This document shows, one piece after another, positions 7,740-50,031 of a stretch of DNA of 64,000 nt. The stretch comes from Cordylochernes scorpioides (taxonomy: Eukaryota > Arthropoda > Arachnida > Pseudoscorpiones > Chernetidae). A program made the position numbers and the translations under genes. The DNA lies in NCBI GenBank assembly GCA_030710605.1, contig CP092874.1:40434164-40498163 (forward strand), given 5' to 3'. Below the pieces are notes generated by a model. That model did not search any database and was not told the origin of the DNA. It saw nothing but the letters and a program-made list of their open reading frames with translations. Each line of letters starts with the position of its first letter. The first letter of the stretch is position 1.

Positions 7740-8125
7740 GATATACTATAATCTCAGCCAAAATGATGAGAAGCGATATTTTATATAGAGAGATGACCTG
7801 GCTTCGTGTCTTCTGCTCAGTGAATATTTTGCTGTTAGAATTTTGTTCCTGCCTTATAAAAATGATCTGGCTTCGTCCGTGGTCAGCTTTATAAATTTTC
7901 CTAGAAATAATTTTGTTTCTGACAATCAAACATGATATAGCAATATTGCCATAATCATTTTCTGACTAAAAATAACTATTTTTGCCCAGTACTTTGTCAA
8001 TTTCAATTTTTATTGGCTGACAATGTGACAATAAACTCATATAATTTTCTCTATGTCCTGTTAAATTTTTCCAGCCACTTTAGGTACTTATTGATAACGT
8101 GTATAGCTGACAAACATATATACAA
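7740..8125 (-). mobile_element. Helitron family H2 internal fragment
   Basis: Related to 14720-14960 and, reversed, to 20950-21320 and 25020-25281. Shared blocks are GAGAAGCGATATTTTAT, TTAGAATTTTGTTCCTG and ATCATTTTCTGACTAAA. Neither Helitron terminus is present and there is no coding capacity. Confidence 0.6.
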
Positions 8126-8127
8126 TA

Positions 8128-8450
8128 TATAAAATAAAAGGACTCAAAAGCGCGAATGTTTCTTTTATACATAAAACGAACTTCTACTGTCCTTACTGCG
8201 ATAAAAAAATATATTGGGAGGGTTTGGCTCATCAGTGGTGAACCCTCCCAGAGGTTTCGCCAATTTAATCCACCAGACCGCTTCTCGGAGCTCTGATACT
8301 GTATTGGATCATTCTGCTTTTATATGCTACACTGAAGGATGGAATCTTAGAAATGGTTTTCAAGTAAACTATGGACATAAGCTTATAGGACAGTAGAATT
8401 ACATTCAAATATTTGCTTCGAGCAATGCTCTTCAGCAAACTATAAAGACA
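8128..8450 (-). repeat. Repeat X, diverged copy
   Basis: Aligns throughout with the X units at 16.2-20.3 kb. Its outer inverted repeat (TTCTACTGTCCT / AGGACAGTAGAA) differs from theirs (CTCTACAGACCT / AGGTCTGTAGAG) at three positions, and both arms changed so that pairing is kept. This supports a structured nucleic acid. Confidence 0.75.
8216..8282 (-). ncRNA. Hammerhead-like core in repeat X, strand order rearranged
   Basis: Minus strand, in order: AGCGGT-C (stem III and cleavage C), TGGTGG (stem I), TTGGC-GAA (stem II and core), ACCTCT (stem III), GGGAGGG, TTCACCA (stem I), CTGATGA (core), GCCAA (stem II), CCCTCCC. Stem I pairs over six bases. The core nucleotides are complete, but the S1-S3-S2 order is not that of known hammerheads. 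One C-U mismatch lies in stem III. Confidence 0.45.
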
Positions 8451-13960: not shown

Positions 13961-14031
13961 GCATCGGTGGTTCAGTGGTAGAATGCTCGCCTGCCACGCG
14001 GGCGGCCCAGGTTCGATTCCCGGCCGATGCA
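13961..14031 (+). tRNA. tRNA-Gly (GCC)
   Basis: 71 nt with A box TGGTTCAGTGGT, anticodon loop reading GCC and B box GGTTCGATTCC. The acceptor stem is perfect. The T stem has one A-C mismatch (CCAGG/CCCGG). A T-rich Pol III terminator follows. The 5' flank (GAATGGAATAAATACC) is shared with the second tRNA-Gly at 33770-33840, so this is a repeated unit. Confidence 0.85.
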
Positions 14032-14044: not shown

Positions 14045-14179
14045 TTACAATTTTTAAAATTCATTTATATCTATCCCTATATATAGTCACGACCGTCTTT
14101 CCTCATCGGCCTCTGTCACGGATGCGCGCGCACAGAAGGTCACGTGCTCGCCGGCAGCCAATAAAAATTAAATAAAAAC

Positions 14180-14266
14180 TCCCTCGAGCCGGATTTGAAC
14201 CAGCGACCTAAGGATCACCGTTGTAACATCTACAGTCCTCCGCTCTGCCAACTGAGCTATCGAGGG
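14180..14266 (-). tRNA. tRNA-Tyr (GTA), 14-nt intron
   Basis: 87 nt including a 14-nt intron one base 3' of the anticodon (after CTGTAG), as in eukaryotic tRNA-Tyr. The acceptor stem CCCTCGA/TCGAGGG is perfect. B box is GGTTCAAATCC, and a T-run follows on the minus strand. The 3' end ATCCGGCTCGAGGGA plus CCA equals the primer-binding site of the BEL element at 41621-41638. Confidence 0.9.
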
Positions 14267-14430
14267 ATACAAACTGTATGAATAAGTTTACCTTATAAAG
14301 TCAACTAATCCTATTTCTACACAAAATGTATCCCTATATATAGTCACGACCGTCTTTCCTCATCGGCCTCTGTCACGGATGCGCGCGCACAGGGAGGTCA
14401 CGTGCTCGCCGGCAGCCAATAAAAAAAAAC

Positions 14431-14517
14431 TCCCTCGAGCCGGATTTGAACCGGCGACCTAAGGATCACCGTTGTAACATCTACAGTCCTCCGCTCTGCC
14501 AACTGAGCTATCGAGGC
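14431..14517 (-). tRNA. tRNA-Tyr (GTA), 14-nt intron, second copy
   Basis: Same as the preceding gene, with a perfect T stem. The first acceptor base is G instead of C, giving a G-G mismatch at position 1-72. This could weaken 5' processing or aminoacylation. The intron is identical. Confidence 0.85.
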
Positions 14518-14614
14518 ATACAAACTGTATGAATAAGTTTACCTTATTAAGTCAACTAATCCTATTTCTACACACACAAAATGTACTCATGCATATATTA
14601 TATTATATTATATA

Positions 14615-15964: not shown

Positions 15965-16318
15965 TATATATATAAAATTGAATGTCTGTCTGTGTGTACT
16001 CTATAGATTCAAAAACCATACATCCAATCGCAGTAAAATTTTGAGATATTATTAGGTATATCCCCGGGAAGGGTTTTGAAAAATAATTTCTTGAATATCT
16101 TGAATATCCTTAGAGTTATTTGCAGATTTGTAGATTTAACTCGCAAGCAGCGTCACCATTGCGACGATGATAACAAGTTTTTTTATCTATAAGTTTATTA
16201 TCACTAAGTTTATTATCTTAAAGATTATTTATAAAATTTTACACAAATAAATTTACTGGCAAAGCGTTTCTTTTTTAAATCTCTACAGACCTTACTGCAA
16301 TGATATGATTTAATGAAT

Positions 16319-16384
16319 GAGAGGGCTTGGCTCATCAGTAGTGAACCCTCTCAGCGGTTTCGCCAAATTAATCTCTAGACCGCT
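16319..16384 (-). ncRNA. Hammerhead-like core in X unit 1
   Basis: Minus strand: AGCGGT-C / TAGAGA / TTGGC-GAA / ACCGCT, then hairpin GAGAGGG ... CCCTCTC enclosing TTCACTA-CTGATGA-GCCAAG. Stem III is six perfect pairs, stem II five, stem I five of six. Relative to the 8216 copy, stem I changed G-C to A-U and the enclosing hairpin changed G-C to A-U. On the plus strand the same bases resemble a weak Pol III A box (TGGCTCATCAGT) and B box (GGTTTCGCC), an alternative reading. Confidence 0.45.
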
Positions 16385-16496
16385 CTACTATTGTATTGGA
16401 CTGGTTTTGTTATATACCCTGCATTTTCTATGGAAGGCAGCTAAATGGTGTTTAGTGAACTATGGACATAAGCTTATAGGTCTGTAGAGGTACATA

Positions 16497-17802
16497 CAAG
16501 GTATGTCCCATAAGTTCCCGGACTGGGTCCATAAAAAATAAATAAATGAAAAATGTAAATGAATTTGACTGTTTATTATAGAAATAATATCTGGCTACAC
16601 GGTGGTACCAATATCGAGGCGGTACTTGCGCGCGCGCCAAGGTTATTCTAATTTATTTAAAGGTCACACCTAGCGCTGCGGCGATTTTACGATGGAACAA
16701 AAATTGAAGCAGAGGATATGCATAGAATTTTGTGTGAAACTTCAAATATCAGCAACCGAAACTTTTGAAATGCTTAATAAAGCATTCCCCAATGACGCCT
16801 CAAAGAGAACAACTGTTTTTGAATGGCATTCTAGATTTAAAGCTGGCAGAATTTCCATTGAAGATGATCCTCGTCAAGGACGCCCAAAATTTCAAAGGAC
16901 TGATGAAAATGGGCAAAAAATCGCCGATTTAATAGAAGAAAATCCTCGAACCACTTTGCTGGAGCTAGAGCAAGACACAGGCATCTCTAAAACAACGATT
17001 GGAAGGATCGTAACCGAAGATTTGAAGCTCAAAAAGACTCCTGCAAAATTCATCCCAAGATTCCTCACCAATGAGCAAAAACTGTGTCGGCTTGCAACCT
17101 GTGAGGACATGATGGAAATGACAAGAACGGATCCAGAATGGAAAGACAAGATAATCACAGGCGACGAGACATGGGTCTATGGCTATGACCCTGAAACCAA
17201 ACCTCAATCTGCCGAGTGGAGAGGTTAGGGTGAGCCTAGACCCAAAAAATCCAGAAAAAAGGTGTTGCTGGTCGCTTTTTCGGATAACAAGAGCATTGTT
17301 CATCACGAGTATCTTCCTGCAGGCCAAACAGTTATTAAGGAAATGTATTTGGGCATTCTTCGCCGTCTAAGGGAAGCGATTCGAAAAAAAAGGCCAGAAA
17401 ATGGACTAATGGTGGCTGGATCCTACACCATGACAATGCTCGCCCTCACACAGCGCACTTGATGACTAGCTTTTTGGCGAAAAACTTGACACAAATCCTA
17501 CTTCAACCACCCTATTTCCCAGACATCGCACCAAATGCCTTTTTCCTGTTCCCCAAACTCAAAGCAGTTCTAAAAGGAAGACATTTTGACACCAGGGATG
17601 ACATAATAGAAAAATCGCCGTTAGCATTGAAGAGCATTCCAAAAGAGGCTTATAAAAACTGTTTCGTCAATTAGGAGAAAGGATGGCGCTGGTGCGTTGA
17701 AGCAAGGGGGGATTACTTTGAAAAGTTTTAATAAAAAAAATTTAAAAAATTCTTACCTTTTTTTTTATGGACCCAGTCCGGGAACTTATGGGACATACCT
17801 TG
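16497..17802 (+). mobile_element. mariner copy 1 in X unit 1
   Basis: 1,306 bp with inverted termini CAAGGTATGTCCCATAAG extending through GGGTCCATAAAAAA, and TA on each side. Unit 3 and the inverted unit keep the same site empty (TACATACATATAAATT), which proves the TA duplication. Confidence 0.95.
16692..17674 (+). pseudogene. mariner transposase, inactive
   Basis: The first 178 codons encode the paired HTH DNA-binding half and TGDETW (first catalytic Asp). A TAG follows at EWRG (17226-17228). The frame resumes through LPAGQT, then a frameshift near 17420 precedes HHDNA (second Asp). Spacing to the third position is 34 residues (DD34D), but that residue is Ala (APNAFFLF). Stop, frameshift and catalytic loss each inactivate it. 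Confidence 0.9.
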
Positions 17803-17994
17803 TACATATAAATTTCAAGGTATTGCATCGAGCAAAGCTCTTCCGCGCAAAACTTGTTTTCATAACCATTATATATTAGTAAATTAAATTTTATTGCCCT
17901 CTATCGTTAAAATTTTACACAAATAAATTTACTGGCAATGCGTTTCTTTTTTAAATCTCTACAGACCTTACTGCAATGATATGATTTAATGAAT

Positions 17995-18060
17995 GAGAGG
18001 GCTTGGCTCATCAGTAGTGAACCCTCTCAGCGGTTTCGCCAAATTAATCTCTAGACCGCT
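17995..18060 (-). ncRNA. Hammerhead-like core in X unit 2
   Basis: Identical in sequence to the unit 1 motif. Confidence 0.45.
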
Positions 18061-18172
18061 CTACTATTGTATTGGACTGGTTTTGTTATATACCCTTCAT
18101 TTTCTATGGAAGGCAGCTAAATGGTGTTTAGTGAACTATGGACATAAGCTTATAGGTCTGTAGAGGTACATA

Positions 18173-19478
18173 CAAGGTATGTCCCATAAGTTCCCGGACT
18201 GGGTCCATAAAAAATAAATAAATGAAAAATGTAAATGAATTTGACTGTTTATTATAGAAATAATATCTGGCTACACGGTGGTACCAATATCGAGGCGGTA
18301 CTTGCGCGCGCGCCAAGGTTATTCTAATTTATTTAAAGGTCACACCTAGCGCTGCGGCGATTTTACGATGGAACAAAAATTGAAGCAGAGGATATGCATA
18401 GAATTTTGTGTGAAACTTCAAATATCAGCAACCGAAACTTTTGAAATGCTTAATAAAGCATTCCCCAATGACGCCTCAAAGAGAACAACTGTTTTTGAAT
18501 GGCATTCTAGATTTAAAGCTGGCAGAATTTCCATTGAAGATGATCCTCGTCAAGGACGCCCAAAATTTCAAAGGACTGATGAAAATGGGCAAAAAATCGC
18601 CGATTTAATAGAAGAAAATCCTCGAACCACTTTGCTGGAGCTAGAGCAAGACACAGGCATCTCTAAAACAACGATTGGAAGGATCGTAACCGAAGATTTG
18701 AAGCTCAAAAAGACTCCTGCAAAATTCATCCCAAGATTCCTCACCAATGAGCAAAAACTGTGTCGGCTTGCAACCTGTGAGGACATGATGGAAATGACAA
18801 GAACGGATCCAGAATGGAAAGACAAGATAATCACAGGCGACGAGACATGGGTCTATGGCTATGACCCTGAAACCAAACCTCAATCTGCCGAGTGGAGAGG
18901 TTAGGGTGAGCCTAGACCCAAAAAATCCAGAAAAAAGGTGTTGCTGGTCGCTTTTTCGGATAACAAGAGCATTGTTCATCACGAGTATCTTCCTGCAGGC
19001 CAAACAGTTATTAAGGAAATGTATTTGGGCATTCTTCGCCGTCTAAGGGAAGCGATTCGAAAAAAAAGGCCAGAAAATGGACTAATGGTGGCTGGATCCT
19101 ACACCATGACAATGCTCGCCCTCACACAGCGCACTTGATGACTAGCTTTTTGGCGAAAAACTTGACACAAATCCTACTTCAACCACCCTATTTCCCAGAC
19201 ATCGCACCAAATGCCTTTTTCCTGTTCCCCAAACTCAAAGCAGTTCTAAAAGGAAGACATTTTGACACCAGGGATGACATAATAGAAAAATCGCCGTTAG
19301 CATTGAAGAGCATTCCAAAAGAGGCTTATAAAAACTGTTTCGTCAATTAGGAGAAAGGATGGCGCTGGTGCGTTGAAGCAAGGGGGGATTACTTTGAAAA
19401 GTTTTAATAAAAAAAATTTAAAAAATTCTTACCTTTTTTTTTATGGACCCAGTCCGGGAACTTATGGGACATACCTTG
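18173..19478 (+). mobile_element. mariner copy 2 in X unit 2
   Basis: Shifted by exactly 1,676 bp from copy 1, with the same termini and the same target site. It arose by duplication of the occupied X unit, not by a second transposition. Confidence 0.95.
18368..19350 (+). pseudogene. mariner transposase, inactive, second copy
   Basis: Shares the stop, frameshift and Asp-to-Ala change of copy 1 at the same positions. The translated pieces are identical. Confidence 0.9.
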
Positions 19479-19670
19479 TACATATAAATTTCAAGGTATT
19501 GCATCGAGCAAAGCTCTTCCGCGCAAAACTTGTTTTCATAACCATTATATATTAGTAAATTAAATTTTATTGCCCTCTATCGTTAAAATTTTACACAAAT
19601 AAATTTACTGGCAATGCGTTTCTTTTTTAAATCTCTACAGACCTTACTGCAATGATATGATTTAATGAAT

Positions 19671-19736
19671 GAGAGGGCTTGGCTCATCAGTAGTGAACCC
19701 TCTCAGCGGTTTCGCCAAATTAATCTCTAGACCGCT
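19671..19736 (-). ncRNA. Hammerhead-like core in X unit 3
   Basis: Same sequence as units 1 and 2, in a unit without mariner. Confidence 0.45.
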
Positions 19737-20092
19737 CTACTATTGTATTGGACTGGTTTTGTTATATACCCTTCATTTTCTATGGAAGGCAGCTAAATGG
19801 TGTTTAGTGAACTATGGACATAAGCTTATAGGTCTGTAGAGGTACATACATATAAATTTCATTTGTGTAAAATTTTAACGATAGAGGGCAATAAAATTTA
19901 ATTTACTAATATATAATGGTTATGAAAACATGTTTTGCGCGGAAGAGCTTTGCTCGATGCAATACCTTGAAATTTATATGTATGTACCTCTACAGACCTA
20001 TAAGCTTATGTCCATAGTTCACTAAACACCATTTAGCTGCCTTCCATAGAAAATGCAGGGTATATAACAAAACCAGTCCAATACAATAGTAG

Positions 20093-20158
20093 AGTGGTCT
20101 AGAGATTAATTTGGCGAAACCGCTGAGAGGGTTCACTACTGATGAGCCAAGCCCTCTC
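20093..20158 (+). ncRNA. Hammerhead-like core in inverted X unit
   Basis: Opposite orientation. Stem III starts AGTGGT instead of AGCGGT, giving a G-U wobble in place of C-G, so pairing is kept. Confidence 0.45.
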
Positions 20159-20744
20159 ATTCATTAAATCATATCATTGCAGTAAGGTCTGTAGAGTTTT
20201 AAAAATAAAAAAGAAACGCATTGCCAGTAAATTTATTTGTGTGAAATTTTAACGATAGAGGGCAATAAAATTTAATTTACAAAGATTATTTATCAAAAGT
20301 AAGATTATCTCAGCATGACACGGCAATTTATTTGAGACAAGAATAATGATACAATTCCAAGGCGAAGATACTATTCCTTTAACTTCCAATTACCGAGGGA
20401 ACCAATTAATATTGATTTTATTCAACTTATCGAGTATTTTTCAACGGACTGGGAAAAAATGCTCACTAGATAAAACGATGATTTTGTAATGTAGAAAATT
20501 AGGAAAGAAAAAATTCAGGATGACACGGCACACAGGGACCGGGAAAAAATGTTCACTTTATCGAGAGATTCAAATTTACGAGTTTCATATTATCAAAATA
20601 TATATATATATTTTTTTATAAGTTTATAGAGAATTGTTTGAACAAATGTTCGTTAGACAAACCTTTACTCGGATAAAACCCGGGCGAAGCCGGGTACATC
20701 CTTTAGTTATTATTAAAATATACAAGTATCAGAGTCATCAATTC

Positions 20745-34091: not shown

Positions 34092-34822
34092 TACTCTTCA
34101 TTGTTGGCTTTTTATCTTACATTCATTCTTCATTGTTGACTTTTTATATTACATTTACTCTTCATTGTTTGCTTTTTATCTTACATTCACTCTTCATTGT
34201 TGGCTTTTTATCTTACATTCATTCTTCATTGTTGGCTTTTTATATTACATTCACTCTTCATTGTTGGCTTTTTATCTTACATTCATTCTTCATTGTTGGC
34301 TTTTTATATTACATTCACTCTTCATTGTTGGCTTTTTATCTTACATTCATTCTTCATTGTTGGCTTTTTATATTACATTCACTCTTCATTGTTGGCTTTT
34401 TATCTTACATTCATTCTTCATTGTTGGCTTTTTATATTACATTCACTCTTCATTGTTGGCTTTTTATCTTACATTCACTCTTCATTGTTGGCTTTTTATA
34501 TTATATTCACTCTTCATTGTTGGCTTTTTATCTTACATTCATTCTTCATTGTTGGCTTTTTATATTATATTTACTCTTCATTGTTGGCTTTTTATCTTAC
34601 ATTCATTCTTCATTGTTGGCTTTTTATATTACATTTACTATTCATTGTTGGCTTTTTATCTTACATTCACTCTTCATTGTTGGCTTTTTATCTTACATTC
34701 ATTCTTCATTGTTGGCTTTTTATATTACATTCACTCTTCATTGTTGGCTTTTTATCTTACATTCATTCTTCATTGTTGGCTTTTTATATTACATTCACTC
34801 TTCATTGTTGGCTTTTTATATC
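34092..34822 (+). repeat. 32-bp minisatellite, about 23 units
   Basis: Unit contains TTCATTGTTGGCTTTTTAT, then TCTTACATTCATTC or TATTACATTCACTC. The two variants mostly alternate, giving a 64-bp higher-order period. All three plus frames are open only because the unit has no stop; none is a gene. It sits at the edge of a Helitron H1 copy. Confidence 0.95.
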
Positions 34823-41917: not shown

Positions 41918-42594
41918 GAAGGTTGCAGGGGGAATGGGTTTGATCAACCCAGGCGGTTTGTGGTTTGTCTGTTTTCTTCTTTGGCATTCTTTGCAGTGTG
42001 CTACATACTTTCGTATATCCTTGAAAAGTCCTGGCCAAAAGTATTTGTTTCTAACCCTCTCATAAGTTTTAGAGAATCCTAGGTGGCCCGCTGTAGGAGC
42101 GTCGTGTAGGCTTCTCAGTAGTTCCAATCGTAGGTGCTTGGGGATGACGAGGAGGTGTGGGTTTCCCAGGTGGTAGAAGTTCATTTTGTACAAGGTTTCT
42201 TTCACCAGTTCATATCCTCTTGGTTCGTCTCCGGATTCTTCTATTTCTTCTATCAATTTTCTAATTCTAGGGTCATTTTTCTGTTCAGTATCAAAGCAGG
42301 TCAGAGCAGTTATTGATGGTACATCATCATCATCTTCTTCTTCCGATTTGCTCTCGAGAGGACTTCGGGAGAGACAGTCTGCGCCGTGGTGCTTACGCCC
42401 GCTTTTATAAGCTAACGTTACGTCGTATGCTTGGAGTTTAATGGCCCACCTCGCCAGGCTTCCTGTCGGGTCTTTCAAATTTGATAACAAGCAAAGGGCG
42501 TGGTGATCCGTAACGATGACGAACTCGCGACCAAAGAGGTAGGGGCGGAATTTGTTTATTGCCCATATCACGGCCAAACATTCTCTTTCGTGTC
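41918..42594 (-). pseudogene. Gypsy element C RNase H and integrase zinc finger
   Basis: RNase H C-terminal half: HERECLAVIWAINKFRPYLFG, VIVTDHHALCLLS, YKSGRKHHGADCLSRSP. Integrase HHCC finger: HDAPTAGHLGFSKTYER and CKECQRRK. The frame runs into the BEL LTR at IPPAT and resumes at 36489 on the other side of the insertion. Confidence 0.85.
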
Positions 42595-42597
42595 GTG

Positions 42598-44166
42598 CAA
42601 CTTGTCGAGGGTGGCGACCTGTTCTTCTTTCAGCGTGGGCGCTAGCCTCTTCATGGTGGTCTCAGAGGTGAGGAGCTGCTGTGCGTCCTTGCAGTTAAGG
42701 CCGGGCAGCTTGTCCCAGTCGATGGAAAGAGTGGGGGTCTCCTCGATGTGCTTCAGCAGCTGTTTGAGGGCGGATTCTCCCCGGGCAGGCGTGGAGGGAG
42801 GTGAGGTCAGCTTCTCCACCGACATCTCGTGGTCGAGCGGAGAGATGCGAGGCTCGAGGAGCCGCTGGGCAGCCAGGGGAGCAGGGAGGGCGGCATGGGC
42901 GGGCTGGGCGAGATCCATCGGTTCGGCAGGATGGGGCGCCGAGGGGATCGCCGGAGACTCTGTTGATTTCTTTGCCGGTTGGACAGGGGACGCCGGTGTT
43001 GCGGGCGCCGGTGCCGGCTTCCTTGGCTGCTGAGGAGGAGGAGGAGGAGGGGGGGGAGGCCTTGCGTCGGTGGGAGACGCTGCTTGCCTGGGGCTGCCGT
43101 TCCCTTGCCTGGCGAGCGCTGGGCAGTTGGCTCTGCGGTGGCCCTGTTTCCCGCATTTTGAGCATTTGATGCCAAAGGAGAGGAAGGCCTGCAGGGTGTC
43201 TCCCTTGGACTGAATCTCCAGGCGGGTGGGCAGCCTGTCCAGTTTGATGCCGTCGTTGAGCAGGATGAAGGCCTCCCGGCGGCCGTCGGTGAATGTGAAC
43301 TCCCCCATTTTGACCAGGATGGGGGCGATGGAGGTGACCCTCCCGTATGGGCTCAGGGCGTTCACGACGGTGAAGTCCTCCACGAAGCCTGGCAGGTTGG
43401 CGACGACGATCCGTTCGGCCCTCTTGCGGTAGGGGAAGACTCTAAGGGTCGTTCCCTCGATCTCTAGGTCGCCCTCAACCAGACGGCGCGCAAGATCTTT
43501 GGTCGCCAAGCCCACGAGGAAATGGCCGTTCATTTTGCCGAAATGTGTGATGTTATTTGGCCCCCCGACCAGCTTGGACATTGCCTTTAGGTAGGTGTAG
43601 TCCGGGATCTCTGGGCACCGCTCCACGAAGATGTAGTTTTCGTGGGTAGATGAGTTCTGCCTCGCCTTTGCCTCGGCGATGTTGGCACGTGTCGCCTTGA
43701 TCTCCTTAGGCGGCACTGTTCTCGGCCCTGTTGGCCGCTTTAGCTGCTGGGAGCTGGGCTTCTCAGCAGGCCTGCTAGGCTGCTTGGCGGCGTGCTCCGG
43801 CGTTGTTGAAGTGCGGCGCCGTTTCTTGCTCTTCACAACGGTAAAACCCTCGTTGGCGTCGACCTCCGCCATCTCGCTGTCGGCCCAGTTTAGCGAGGCC
43901 GGGCTAGCTGGAGTTGCGCTGGTGGCAGCAGCAGTTTTCGGCGCGGTGACGTCACCACGCGCGGCGGCCGGATTTGCATGCATATCGCCTGCCGGCGAAT
44001 TTGCATAGTTTTCAGATTCTGAAGAATTTTCATTGAAATTCTTCAAATTTCCGTTTTTCGGGGCTAATTTCTCGCCCGCTTGCGACAGGTTGCTGGGCCT
44101 TTCAGGCACTTGATCAGCAGAGCCTGGGCCATCTTTTGGTACCAAATTCGACATACCATCCGCCAT
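42598..44166 (-). CDS. Tx1-like LINE ORF1, C-terminally truncated
   Basis: Starts MADGMSNLVPKDGPG. Order: Ser/Thr/Ala-rich N-terminus, NWADSEMAEVDANEG (about 95-110), basic segment with KKRRR, RRM-like domain (NYIFVERCPEIPDYTYLKAM to LPTRLEIQSKGDTL), one CCHC knuckle CSKCGKQGHRRANC (about 340), Pro-rich tail with a run of nine Pro. It stays open and runs into Gypsy sequence, so its last ~10 residues are foreign (KENVWP). Likely RNA-binding. Confidence 0.75.
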
Positions 44167-44241
44167 CAACACGCACGCCAGAGGCGAAAACGGCGGAGCT
44201 CGAAAAAGCGTGGCCGCTCGCTCGCGTGTGTGTGTGTGTGA
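42598..44241 (-). mobile_element. Tx1-like LINE, copy 2, 3'-truncated
   Basis: 5' end with (GT)n, complete ORF1 start, no ORF2. It follows copy 1 head to tail at 44241/44242 and stops at Gypsy element C near 42597. GC-rich relative to neighbours. Confidence 0.75.
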
Positions 44242-44365
44242 CAATTGACAATTTAAAAATATTTATTGTCATCTTAGACAATATTACACATTTTCAATCA
44301 TAGGGAGAGAAAAAGAAATAAGAAGATGAAGATAAGAGAAAATATAAACATACATGAAACATATT

Positions 44366-46549
44366 TTACAAGATGGTGATGGGAGATGGAGGAAGAAAAC
44401 CTCGGCGCTGGAGGGTCCTGGACCAGGCGATGAGCGGGTCCTCCACTGCTTCTCCGAACCCAACCTGTACAAAGTAGCGATAAATTCGCAACTTTGCCGA
44501 CGCCAAGATGGAAAGGGCGTCGTCCTCAAGGCCGGACCCGCCGAAGATCCAAGCCTGCAGGTCAGGGGGCCGCCCTATGATGTTGAAGGCCTCTCTGATG
44601 AGAGGCCTGATGGAGCGGCAGCACCAGTAACGGTGGCCGAGGGAGCGGTCGATGGACCCGCAGGCAGGACAGGAGGGGCCGACCGAGGCAGGATGGGCCG
44701 GATGTGGCAGGGCGTGGAGGGCTAGCTTGAGAGCTGCGTCGGCCACGTGACCCGAATAGGCGCAGCGCCGCAGCGAGGCCCAGTCGATCCTGGATGGTGG
44801 ATTGATGGTGGGCGTCCATCTCGCCAGGAATCTAGAGATGGGCGTGGCGGCGAGGCGCGGGCGATCCAGGGCCCGTCGGGCCGAGCGGGTCGTGAGGCCG
44901 TTGAGGAACGGCGTAGCCGTCCCTCGCAGCACCACGGCTGCAGATAGAGAACTAGATGAGGGTGCAGACTCCGCCCCGAAGCCCACGGCGTTCTCGGAGG
45001 TCAGCCTCCGACAGAAGGCGCCCAGGGCCGCGGCGTCAGCCAGGGCCGAGCGCGTAGGGCGGGCGATGAGGTGGTCCTCCACGATAAGGTCCCGGACTCG
45101 GGCTCCGCGCCAGCGAGCGGGGGCCAGGAGGTCGGGAGGGCGAAGGAACCGGCAGCCACCGATGATGGGGAGGTCCAGCAGCTGAGCTGTGGGGACCGCC
45201 CGGTGATTGAGGCTCAGGATCTTGGAGGCCTCCTCCCACAGTTTCAGTAACCGGAGACGGCGGGGCTGGAGTCGCGTGCCGTCTGGTGGAGGGCGGATCC
45301 AGGCCTCGCCGTCGCTAGCGACCAGCCAGTCGAAGCCGTTCCTGCCTCCGCGGAGCGCGACCTGCACACCCTTGAGGCAGGCGAGCTGGAGTTGGGTTGC
45401 CAGGTTGAGGAGGCCGAGGCCTCCGATGGCCACGGGCCTCGCCATGACGGCGGCGGGAAGCCACGCCGTGTGCTCGGGCCCCCAGACGAACCTCGCAAGT
45501 CTGGCCTGCAGTTTGGCGATGGTCGGGGGTGATGGCAGGTACCCGTGCAGGTGATGCTGGATGGTGGAGCCCACCAGCGAGTTCGCCGCTCTAGCTCGTC
45601 CGACGAGGGATAGGCCGCGGGTGAAGGGCGTCCATCTGCGGCAGGCGGACTCCAGAAGGGCGAGAAGATGCTGCTCCTGATGGACTACGGAGCTTCTGGG
45701 GGCGATGTCGAGCCCGAGGACCCTGATGGAGGTGGTCGACCAGGAGGCGCCGAGAGGGGAGTCGCCGCGGTTGCGCCAGGCTCCGCACCAAAGGCCCGCG
45801 CTCTTCCCGAGGTTGACGGCGATACCGGAGGCCCGCTTGAAGTCCTCGAGGACGGTCGCCACCCGCTCGAATTCTTCGTCGCGATGGAAAAGGAGGACGA
45901 TGTCGTCGGCGTAGGCGATGACGTTGCCCACGCCGAGGGTCAACTCCAGGCGACGAAGCAGCGGCCCCGTAGCGATGCTAAAGAGGGCGGCACTCACGGC
46001 GCAGCCCTGCCTTAGGCCGTTGAGGAGGGGGAAGGCGGTGGTGTGAAAGCCTCCAGCCCGGATCGTTGCGTCCGCTCCGGCGTACAAGATGCTAATCCAG
46101 CCTATGAAGGCCGGCGGGAGGCGGAGGGACGTCATCAGGGACTCCAGGAAGCCGCGGTCCAGGGAATCGAAGGCGGACTCCAAGTCGATGCCCATGACGG
46201 CCAGCGGCGAGCCCATGGCGGTTGCCTCCTCAACAGCATCCGTCACCTTAGCGATGTTCCAGGACGGGGACCTCCCGGGGACGGCGTAAGTCTGGCATTC
46301 CGGCACAAGGGTCCGCAGGTGGGGCTTGAGGCGCCGATGAAGGATGGCGGCCAGGACCCTGTAGTCGGCCGAGGGCAGCGCGACGGGCCTGTAGCCGTCA
46401 AGGCCGCGACCTCCGCGGGCCTTGGGCACGAGGCAGATGGAGCTGCGCCGCGTCGACGGAGGTAGGGCACCGCGGAGCCGTGAAGCCGCGAACACCCGGG
46501 CCAGAGCTTCCGCGAAGAAACCTCGTTGAAGGCGACGAGGAGTTCGCAC
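44366..46549 (-). pseudogene. Tx1-like LINE ORF2, reverse transcriptase part
   Basis: Opens after a frameshift near 46520 from the endonuclease frame. Motifs in order: SSICLVPKARGGRGLDGYRP, MGIDLESAFDSLDRGFL, LLNGLRQGCAVSAALFSIA, NVIAYADDIVLLF (catalytic YADD), a thumb with LGLDIAP, and a C-terminal Cys/His segment CPACGSIDRSLGHRYWC. The QGCxxS...YADD style suits the L1/Tx1 group better than R1 or Jockey. Long and otherwise open. Confidence 0.8.
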
Positions 46550-47835
46550 GGCAAGCCGTCCCAGCCGGGGGCCTTTCCGCGAGGGAGGTGCTCGATGGCG
46601 TTGGCGATCTCGCTAGGGCTGATGTCTGGCCGGTGGAGCGGGTCCCCCTCACTCAGCTCGCGGGTGGTGGTGGGCGCGCTGCTGGCGATGAAGGCAGCTC
46701 CCGCAGCTGGATCGGTGGTGGGACGGGCGAAGCGGGGCCGGAAGGTCGCGAACGCCCTCCGCCGAAGCTCGGGGCCCTCGATGACGTTATCTTCGTCGTC
46801 CCTGATGACGCTGACCGGGCGTCGGAGGCGGATGGCGCGTACCAGGTTCGGCAGCGATGGGTAGTCGGCCCGGATGGAGGAGGCCTCGAGCTGCGCCGCG
46901 ATGTAACGTCTCGCCCTGTAGACGTAGCTGTCTCTGGCAGCGTGGCGTGGGTCGTGCAGGGAACTGGCCTCCGCCAGCAGCCCCGCCTTGATGGAGGTCC
47001 ACCTATCCCAGAAGTTCCCGTCGTCGTCATCGTGCGCTGCGTCTTCCTCCAACTCCCGGATGTAGCCAGCCAGATGTTCGAGAGCAAGGCCCGAGCGGAG
47101 CATCGCGGCCAAGCGAGGCTGGGTGGGGGAGGAGACGGCGGTGGTGGGCGGGCCCACCTGGAGCAGCACGAGGCGGTGGTCCGAGAGGTGGTAGTGGCTG
47201 GTCGCGTAGATGGACACGCGATCCAGGACTCCAGCAGGGACGAGGATCCGGTCCAGGCGGTTCGATTCGACTTGGTCGCCGTGCATGGCGACTCTGGTGG
47301 GCAGGTGGGCGGCGTCGAACTGGGTGGCCACGTCGACCAGCGCGGCCAGGTCCAGAAGAGCGGCGAGGGCATCCGATGATGATGATGAGGGGCCCCGATC
47401 CCTGATGTTAAAATCGCCGATGATCCAGCAGGCCCCCTCCTCCTCCTGTGCCGCTGTCGCCGCCAGGAGCTCCAGTTGCCGGTTTCTCTCCCGGGGTTCA
47501 TGCGCCAGATGAACGACGATGGCCGTCATCTCCTCGCCGTGGACATCTATGGTTGCCAAGGCGATGTGGACCGGCCACAGGACGCGCTGTTGTATCACGG
47601 CTACGCCTGGCCCGAAGACGCAGGCGAGTCCAGATCCCGAGATGGCTACTGGATGGGCCAACACAACAGCGTTGTAGCCGAGGCAGAGGTCTTGGCCGAT
47701 GCCCAGATGAAATGCGTTTGTCTCCTGGACAAACGCGATGTCCACGTGATGTTGCCTTAGGAGATGACAAATGGCAAGGCTCCTCCCCCGAGTGGCGAGC
47801 CCTCGCGCGTTGATGGTGGCGACGCGGTAACTCAT
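46520..47835 (-). pseudogene. Tx1-like LINE ORF2, endonuclease part
   Basis: Begins MSYRVATINARGLATRGRSL. APE-type endonuclease motifs: FVQETN (Glu), WIIGDFNIRD, NRLDRILVPAG and HLSDHRLVLL (His). Then a linker to RGKAPGWDGLPCELL, the RT start, after which a frameshift ends the frame. The ATG overlaps the ORF1 stop as ATGA (47835-47832), which suggests termination-reinitiation. Confidence 0.85.
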
Positions 47836-49488
47836 TTGGGCCGTCCAACAAGCAGCACCGTCCTGGTCTTCTGGAGGGTCTTGTAGACAAGGGTGCTCGA
47901 GTTAGGGCATGAGTCCATGATGATTTTGGCCAGCTCAGTGAAGGCGGTGACCTGTGTTTCCAGCAACGAGGGTACTCGCTTCTTCATGTTGGTGGGAGAG
48001 GCGACGAGCTTCTGTGCGTCCTCCCAGTCTAGGCCGAGCAGCCCGGAGTGGTTGATGGCAATGGAGGGGAGCTTCTCGAGATGCTCTCGCAGCTGGATGA
48101 TTTGCGGGTATTCCCTTGGAAGGCGTGGAGGGAGTTGAGGTCCGCTCCTCCTCCGACATCTCGATGTCGAGCGGAAGGATCGCGGGCTCGAGGGGCCGCG
48201 GGGCAGCCATAGGAGCGGGGAGGGCAACAGGGGCGGGCTGGGCGAGATCCTTCGGTTCGGCAGGATGGGGCGCCGAGGGGATCGCTGGAGCCTCGGTTGA
48301 TGTCTTCGCCGGTTGGACAGGGGACGCCGGTGTTGCGGGCGCAGGTGTCGGCCTCCTTGGCTGCTGAGGAGGAGGACGAGGGGGGAGGGGCCTAGCGTCG
48401 GTGGGAGACGCTGCTTGCCTGGGGCTGCTCTTCTGCCTGGCGAGCGATGGGCAGTTTGCTCTGGGGTGGCCCTGCTTGCCGCACTTGGAACACTTTATTC
48501 CAAAGGAGAGGAAGGCTGACAGGGTGTCTCCTTTGGAACTGATGGTCAGTCGGGTGGGCAGCGTCTCCAGCCTCACGCCCTCGCGGAGCAGGATGAACGC
48601 CTCCCGGCGGCCGTCGTTGAAGGTGTATTCCCCCATCTTGATCATGATGGGGGCGATGGAGGTTACGGTGCCGAAGTTGCGCAGGGCCTCCACGATGGCG
48701 CTGTCCTCGACGAAGCCGGGCAGATTTGCGATGGTGATGCGTTCTGCCCTTTTTCGGAAGGGGACCTTCAGATGGGTTCCTTCGATGTCAAGGCCCACCT
48801 CCACCAGACGGCTCGCATGGTCCTTGGTCGCGAGGCCCACGACGTTGTGGCCGTTCATCCTGTTAAATTGGCTTATTCTCCCTGGCCCTCCGACCAGGTT
48901 GCCAATTGCCCGGAGGTAGGAGTAGTCCGGGATGTCAGGGCACAGCTCCACGAAGATGTAATTCTCGTGGTTGGTAGAGATCTGCCTCGCCTTGGCATCG
49001 GCGATGTTGGCGCGCGTCGCCTTGATTTCCTGGGGCGGCATTGACCTCGGCCCTGTTGGCCGCTTCCGTTGCTGGGGGCTGGGCTTCTCAGCAGGCCTGC
49101 CAGGCTGCCTAGCGGCGTGCTCCGGTGTTGAAGTGAAGCGCCTCTTCTTGCCCTTCACGACGATGAAGCCCTCGTTGTCGTCCACCTCCGCCATCTCGCT
49201 GTCGGCCCAGTTGAGCGAGGCCGGGCTAGCTGGAGTTGCGCTGGTCGTAGCAGCAGTCTTCGGCGCCGTTATGTCACCACGCTCGGCGGCCAGATTTGCA
49301 TGCCTTCCGCCTGCCGGCGAATTTGCATTTCTTTGAAATTCAGTAGAATTTTTGTTAGATTTCATCTCAATTCCGCTTTTCGGCGATAATTCCTCGCCTG
49401 GTCGAGACAGGATGCTGGGCCTTTCAGGCACTTGTTCAGCAGAGCCTGGGCTACCTTTCGGTACCGAATTCGGCATGTTTGTCGACAT
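47832..49488 (-). pseudogene. Tx1-like LINE ORF1, copy 1, one frameshift
   Basis: Frame 49488-47935 begins MSTNMPNSVPKGSPG, with the same order as copy 2: NWADSEMAEVDDNEG, basic segment, RRM-like domain and CCHC knuckle CSKCGKQGHPRANC. Near 48115 a shift is needed to reach the C-terminal part that aligns with copy 2 (DWEDAQKLVASPTNMKKR) and ends at 47832. Confidence 0.8.
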
Positions 49489-49560
49489 CTACACGCACGC
49501 CAGAGGCGAAAACGGCGGAGCTCGAAAAAGCGTGGCCGCTCGCTCGCGTGTGTGTGTGTG

Positions 49561-50031
49561 TGTGTGTGGTCTGTTTGTCCTTTATGCCTGACCAAACCAC
49601 TCATTGGAACGCCATGAATCTTTGGGAAGTTATTTAGTATAGTACTGGGAAGGTTTCTAGCAAATACAATTTTTGAAATAACTTTTCGCTTTAAAATAAT
49701 CAAGATAAATATTCTAATTTATCTGTTATAATTCAACAATCTGCTCTAAATATTATCATGATGATACGATGATTTTGTAATGTAGAAAATTAGGAAAGAC
49801 AAAATTCAGGATGACACGGCAATTTATTTGAGACAAGAATAATGATACAATTCCAAGGCAAGATAATATTCCTTTAACTTCCAATTACCGAGGGAACCAA
49901 TTAATATTGATTTTATTCAACTTATTGAGTATTTTTCAAGGGACCGGGAAAAAATGTTCACTTTATCGAGAGATTCGTTAGACAAACCTTTACCCGGGTA
50001 AAACCCGGGCGAAGCCCGGTACGTCCGCTAG
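49561..50031 (+). mobile_element. Helitron H1-like copy
   Basis: 5' half like 32800-32900 (ATTTAGTATAGTACTGGGAA), 3' half like 15720-15964, ending ACCCGGGCGAAGCCCGGT then CGCTAG at 50031. The Tx1-like LINE is inserted near its 5' end. Confidence 0.7.

Follow-up and report, generated by a model that had tools for sequence, protein, structure and literature searches.

Five copies of a repeat, here called X, were observed in the window (the whole stretch of DNA analysed, 64 kb), each carrying a hammerhead core whose strands follow one another in a non-circular order, and as judged from sequence and predicted pairing the ribozyme is of the already published type-SGC topology. We propose that X is a small retroelement, non-autonomous and of the same kind as metazoan retrozymes, in which a type-SGC (non-circularly permuted) hammerhead would replace the usual type I, and we give this reading a probability of roughly 0.7.

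Core, strand order and pairing of the ribozyme

A position-by-position check found the invariant hammerhead nucleotides (CUGA, GA, G10.1-C11.1, GAA, A15.1-U16.1 and C17) in all five X copies, and a motif scan returned the linear block order S-G-C (S1-S3-S2) for each of them; both the full core and the strand order had been claimed in an initial annotation of this DNA and were borne out. Read 5' to 3' on the minus strand, the copy at 8.2 kb (A8) has the cleavage strand AGCGGUC followed by UGGUGGA, then the GAAA strand UUGGC GAA ACCUCU, while its third strand, UUCACCA CUGAUGA GCCAA, sits within a 7-bp hairpin (GGGAGGG/CCCUCCC). Stem I of A8 has 7 bp (UGGUGGA/UUCACCA, one G.U), stem II has 5 bp, the second hairpin has 7 bp, and stem III has a U.C mismatch at the fourth pair. 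The four array copies have a stem III of 6 bp (with one G.U in E20), a stem II of 6 bp including one G.U, and a stem I of three pairs, an A.A mismatch and two pairs. The earlier statement that helices I, II and III can pair was correct as to the presence of the stems, but it had left the mismatch in stem III of A8 unmentioned and is qualified by the A.A mismatch in stem I of the array. The helix that connects stems I and II at their unlinked sides was 7 bp in all five copies, as expected from the second hairpin proposed around the S2 strand, and the proposal that loop-loop contact of two hairpins builds the core holds as a predicted structure. Nucleotide C17 was spaced 17 nt from G12 in A8 and 16 nt in the other copies. 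Coordinates are collected in Table 1, where C17 is both the name of one array copy and that of the cleavage-site nucleotide.

Table 1. Positions of repeat X, its ribozyme copies and associated features in the window
Feature	Position	Strand	Details
Monomeric X element A8, approximate extent	8123..8450	-	About one circular unit, ends weakly aligned; from alignment to the 368-bp unit over the circular join
Outer 12-bp stem of A8	8182..8398	-	Arms 8182-8193 and 8387-8398; 12 of 12 pairs in five of five copies
Type-SGC hammerhead ribozyme, copy A8	8216..8282	- (sense = minus)	All invariant nucleotides; stem I 7, stem II 5, stem III 5 of 6, interaction helix 7 bp
Interaction helix enclosing block C of A8	8216..8249	-	8249-8243 with 8222-8216 (GGGAGGG/CCCUCCC)
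Block C of A8	8224..8242	-	Stem I 3' strand 8242-8236, CUGAUGA 8235-8229, stem II 5' strand 8228-8224; alignment
Block G of A8	8250..8263	-	Stem II 3' strand 8263-8259, GAA, stem III 3' strand 8255-8250; alignment
Block S of A8	8269..8282	-	Stem III 5' strand 8282-8277, nucleotide C17 8276 (predicted cleavage 3' of it), stem I 5' strand 8275-8269; alignment
Left target-site duplication, 13 bp	16220..16232	+	AAAGATTATTTAT
X array within host repeat R	16233..20280	.	One truncated and two further units with two mariner copies, followed by an inverted run of more than one unit
Ribozyme copy B16	16319..16384	-	Nucleotide C17 at 16378 (predicted cleavage site)
Mariner inserted in X	16497..17802	+	TA target duplication; Mos1-type HTH domain in ORF
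Complete 368-bp X unit	17803..18170	-	Flanked by a mariner copy on each side, with the TA counted a single time; GC 0.348
Ribozyme copy C17	17995..18060	-	Nucleotide C17 at 18054 (predicted cleavage site)
Second copy of the mariner	18173..19478	+	Within the 1676-bp duplication
Ribozyme copy D19	19671..19736	-	Nucleotide C17 at 19730 (predicted cleavage site)
Ribozyme copy E20 (inverted)	20093..20158	+	Nucleotide C17 at 20099 (predicted cleavage site)
Right target-site duplication, 13 bp	20281..20293	+	AAAGATTATTTAT

For a match, all three blocks had to fall within 160 nt, in whichever order, and form at least 11 bp overall, with minimum lengths of 3, 4 and 3 bp for stems I, II and III. The scan gave five matches in the 64-kb window, which were the five X copies, all in SGC order; the cyclic S-C-G order of hammerhead types I, II and III was not found in the window for blocks within 160 nt. 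Across 1000 dinucleotide shuffles of the window, 33 matches were obtained over all six block orders together. Two of these were SGC (stems of 3+5+3 bp, best flanking helix 5), one of the 33 reached at least 15 bp, and none had a helix of at least 7 bp around the C block, as all five X copies do. An earlier and stricter scan had produced 2 matches in 40 shuffles, neither of them SGC, and missed A8 owing to the mismatch in stem III. Run as a positive control on 40 IMG/VR loci preselected by a related pattern, the present scan gave 36 type II (GSC) matches. That two stable hairpins merely happen to hold hammerhead strings in their loops would be in keeping with the mismatch in A8 and with the relatedness of all copies, but with no three-block match plus a flanking helix of at least 7 bp in any of the 1000 shuffled windows, and with stem I pairing that survives a two-sided change, we consider such a chance likeness highly improbable. 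A covariance model built from the five copies and run on the window recovered them all, followed by seven matches at E values of 0.15 to 7.1, five of which lay on the opposite strand of X copies.

All covariation in X comes from a single evolutionary comparison, A8 against the array, since the array copies are near-identical to one another. Pairs changed on both sides numbered three in the outer 12-bp stem and one each in stem I and the second hairpin (G-C, A-U in either case). The initial annotation had cited these same compensatory changes in support of the structure; its counts were confirmed, but for the ribozyme helices the covariation is only suggestive, as two-sided changes in 2 of the 23 pairs of the four helices were equalled in 54 of 500 column shuffles, with two lineages only. 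The five counted pairs of stem II were invariant and hence uninformative on covariation. Two-sided changes of the outer stem were reached in none of 500 column shuffles; sequences that share ancestry may exceed this control even where there is no structure. Identity between A8 and an array copy was 57/64 in the ribozyme, 36/65 in the stretch before it, 12/20 just 3' of it, 28/48 at the far end and 9/12 in the outer arm, and columns 70-98 next to the outer stem kept 25 of 28 positions, matching the level of the ribozyme.

Type SGC as a known class

Eckert et al. 2023 (PMC10085705) describe type SGC as a non-circular hammerhead permutation in which stems I and II are connected by a short link on one side and by a helix on the other. 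As reported there, the five SGC examples expected to be functional cleaved in cis during transcription and gave products of the predicted size, at rates between 0.007 and 0.13 per minute, with 0.19 per minute in a shortened construct. A sixth example without the nucleotides at the cleavage site stayed uncleaved, and mutants that break and restore pairing in SGC-3 back all four stems. The same paper states that SGC motifs came nearly all from metatranscriptomes, with HRIMA-1 from contigs bearing hairpin ribozymes, and that none of the RNAs, except one GCS candidate, was located in the genome of a known organism; the origin of the non-circular permutation is discussed in it and left unsettled.

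Compared with the account in PMC10085705, X resembles type SGC and HRIMA-1 in its S-G-C order, core nucleotides, stems I to III and extra helix, and its helix begins 0 nt after stem III, as in a few of the SGC examples given. The link between stems I and II is 4-5 nt by our count in X, against typically 3 nt in the described SGC examples, and X is DNA-encoded within a repeat whereas the latter are almost all metatranscriptomic RNA. The suggestion of an undescribed topology is accordingly ruled out by the published type, which includes the helix joining stems I and II. A trans or multimer-active ribozyme, also suggested earlier, is not needed because the tested natural SGC examples described in PMC10085705 cleave in cis. 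In its fullest form that explanation has the S and C blocks of one unit combining with the G block of the next into a conventional hammerhead, so that cleavage would require tandem copies. Tandem copies of X do exist, and PMC7229834 describes animal hammerheads that perform better in dimeric form; we nevertheless hold it to be a poor prospect, as the inverted part of the array has a single ribozyme and the 7-bp helix enclosing block C agrees with type SGC, with its cis-cleaving examples.

Rfam 15 gave no hammerhead at X, and both strands around A8 and E20 were without a ribozyme match; the present Rfam families miss an element such as X. Patterns specific to X returned no match in IMG/VR contigs and none in GTDB contigs (a set that may omit the genome of the window itself), and no relative of X was seen in either. 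Forty loci were found on scanning IMG/VR contigs for the SGC core. These were rejected as SGC relatives, since in 39 of the 40 (the exception being L019) the G and C blocks of the match have the usual arrangement of a type II (GSC) hammerhead and the upstream GGTC is extra; such hammerheads have the same three blocks as X, but in cyclic order and without the pseudoknot. The general scan of the 40 loci gave 36 GSC, 2 SGC, 2 SCG and 2 GCS matches in 389,226 bases, and the two SGC matches, in L007 and L020, had flanking helices of merely 2-3 bp. Both loci (L007 13302-13372, L020 8324-8394) are type II hammerheads in which the extra upstream GGTC could, in SGC order, form 5+4+4 bp with the G and C blocks already in use. 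Type SGC in an animal was named in no title or abstract opening among the matches listed for hammerhead literature on insects, arthropods, satellites, Helitrons and retrozymes, a body of titles and abstracts that includes few subscription journals.

The repeat unit and its array

The array interrupts one copy of a host repeat, R, of which three other copies run through the site. The 13-bp sequence AAAGATTATTTAT flanks the array on both sides, with a G where the three uninterrupted R copies have a T. Thirteen base pairs is a usual length of target-site duplication for target-primed reverse transcription. The left part of the array has a period of 1676 bp, made up of the X unit and the mariner, with 99.9% identity over 1943 bp, and the duplication is therefore recent. 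The right part (19861-20280) is inverted, free of mariner, and runs head to tail past one unit; the roughly 50 bp that open it recur at its end (19853-19906 against 20228-20280, 96%). Reading about 50 bp past a full unit is expected from a circular or multimeric template. An arrangement of inverted and direct copies is what twin priming can leave, and the array may have arisen in this way.

The tandem of X and mariner spans 16233-19850, and a transcript running X-mariner-X, if cut twice, would yield a circle with a DNA transposon in it. Unequal exchange of the ordinary kind is the likelier source of the 1676-bp tandem.

A8 seems to have been opened within the same AT-rich stretch as the unit, although its ends are weakly aligned, and no target-site duplication of at least 8 bp was seen at it. 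A 39-bp segment at 3340-3378 matches 8127-8165, the sense 3' end of A8, at 92%, and is perhaps a fragment of X or a tail shared with another element. Circular folding of the unit was predicted to be only slightly more stable than that of shuffles and not unusual, with z of -1.1 for the array and -1.5 for A8, and with 27 and 16 of 200 shuffles, respectively, being as stable.

A real ribozyme could also belong to an element mobilised otherwise, for example like a SINE or a satellite, in which it would trim transcripts with no circular stage. A target-site duplication is compatible with every kind of target-primed element, A8 is nearly monomeric, and the recent 1676-bp duplication resembles an ordinary tandem duplication; the inverted part, free of mariner, passes one unit head to tail, and neither a tRNA nor any other gathering-level Rfam family was found at X, which together make this alternative unlikely in our estimate. 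The initial annotation had raised a tRNA-like Pol III promoter on the other strand. This was not supported, and a tRNA-like head of X was rejected: none of the four tRNAs that ARAGORN placed in the window lies at an X copy, and Rfam around A8 and E20 gave no tRNA even at E values up to 10. Rfam matches to miRNA families at 19781-20048 (best E 4.9e-11, far below gathering scores) were attributed to the long inverted repeat present there and not retained.

The target-site duplication also bears on whether X is a DNA structure, such as Helitron or Helentron subterminal repeats or a foldback element, in which the hammerhead is fortuitous or a relic. X presumably resembles a Helentron, covariation between copies is seen in its outer inverted repeat, and beyond that repeat there is a short GAGC..GCTC hairpin. 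However, the outer repeat does not lie at the ends of X, the core with its flanking helix occurred in no shuffle, and the 13-bp duplication at the array speaks against a Helitron or Helentron and against a DNA transposon with a short fixed duplication. Helitrons, to our knowledge, make no target-site duplication. We would be surprised if a DNA structure of this sort accounted for X.

X as a proposed retrozyme-like element, and the rest of the window

The 2020 paper on metazoan non-LTR retrozymes was reportedly written by Cervera and de la Pena. In PMC7229834 (2020), metazoan retrozymes are low-GC tandem repeats of about 150-450 bp with a type I hammerhead, whose target-site duplications, when present, are longer than 4 bp; as a group they have no LTRs, primer binding site or polypurine tract, they are expressed as small linear and circular RNA, and its authors propose that the circle is reverse-transcribed into tandem copies. 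Set against that account, X is alike in its low-GC unit of a few hundred base pairs (368 bp, GC 0.348), in having more than one unit head to tail, and in the target-site duplication of 13 bp at its array, and it differs in that its hammerhead is type SGC where those of PMC7229834 are type I. Unit size, GC content, head-to-tail read-through and target-site duplication are our grounds for proposing a retrozyme-like element whose ribozyme is of type SGC; we did not file X within the type I retrozyme family, as a type I hammerhead was not found. The hammerhead satellite pDo500 of Dolichopoda cave crickets (PMC2837043) is insect repeat DNA that also has a hammerhead, but it is a satellite family.

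We infer that X would be transcribed, cleaved, circularised and reverse-transcribed as follows. The transcript would read as the minus strand, and its stem III hairpin would bear the cleavage strand and the GAAA strand, with the second hairpin exposing CUGAUGA in its loop. Pairing of the two loops would bring stems I and II alongside each other and form a normal hammerhead core, with a predicted cut after C17 of GGUC (8276 in A8). Transcripts of several units would in this manner release monomers of about 368 nt, which a host ligase could close into circles, and a non-LTR reverse transcriptase could copy these back into DNA, sometimes going round the circle more than once. A site read as TATAAAAG in the sense direction lies at 8317-8324 (minus strand), about 40 nt 5' of the predicted cleavage site of A8, and the array carries TATATAAC at the aligned place; this could be a putative promoter that starts transcripts just 5' of the ribozyme.

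We incline, with less assurance than for X itself, to the broader view that there is a class of animal retrozymes in which pseudoknotted type-SGC hammerheads cut the RNA circles. The type would then be a mobile ribozyme encoded in animal DNA, besides being a feature of metatranscriptomic RNA, and genomes would offer a way for a non-circular permutation to be made, copied and kept. By occurring as DNA within a repeat element, type SGC would gain an assayable host, a role in retrozyme-like RNA processing, and related copies for covariation.

Other features were observed elsewhere in the window, and from its Mos1-type mariner ORFs, its retroelement reverse transcriptases and its two tRNA-Tyr genes of 89 nt the host is probably an animal. 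A protein search with the ORF at 1599-2351 gave no match at E 0.001. A 251-bp tandem duplication at 14072-14574 holds one tRNA-Tyr gene of 89 nt per copy, a length that we take to suggest an intron, and tRNA-Gly genes were found at 13961 and 33770. A 32-bp minisatellite of 22.7 copies (34093-34819) is open in three frames on the plus strand. The region 42000-50000 forms a GC-rich island (55-65%, with 30-47% GC in the rest of the window) and holds an ORF with an RVT_1 reverse transcriptase domain; over the whole window, the ORFs include Mos1-type mariner and retroelement reverse transcriptases.
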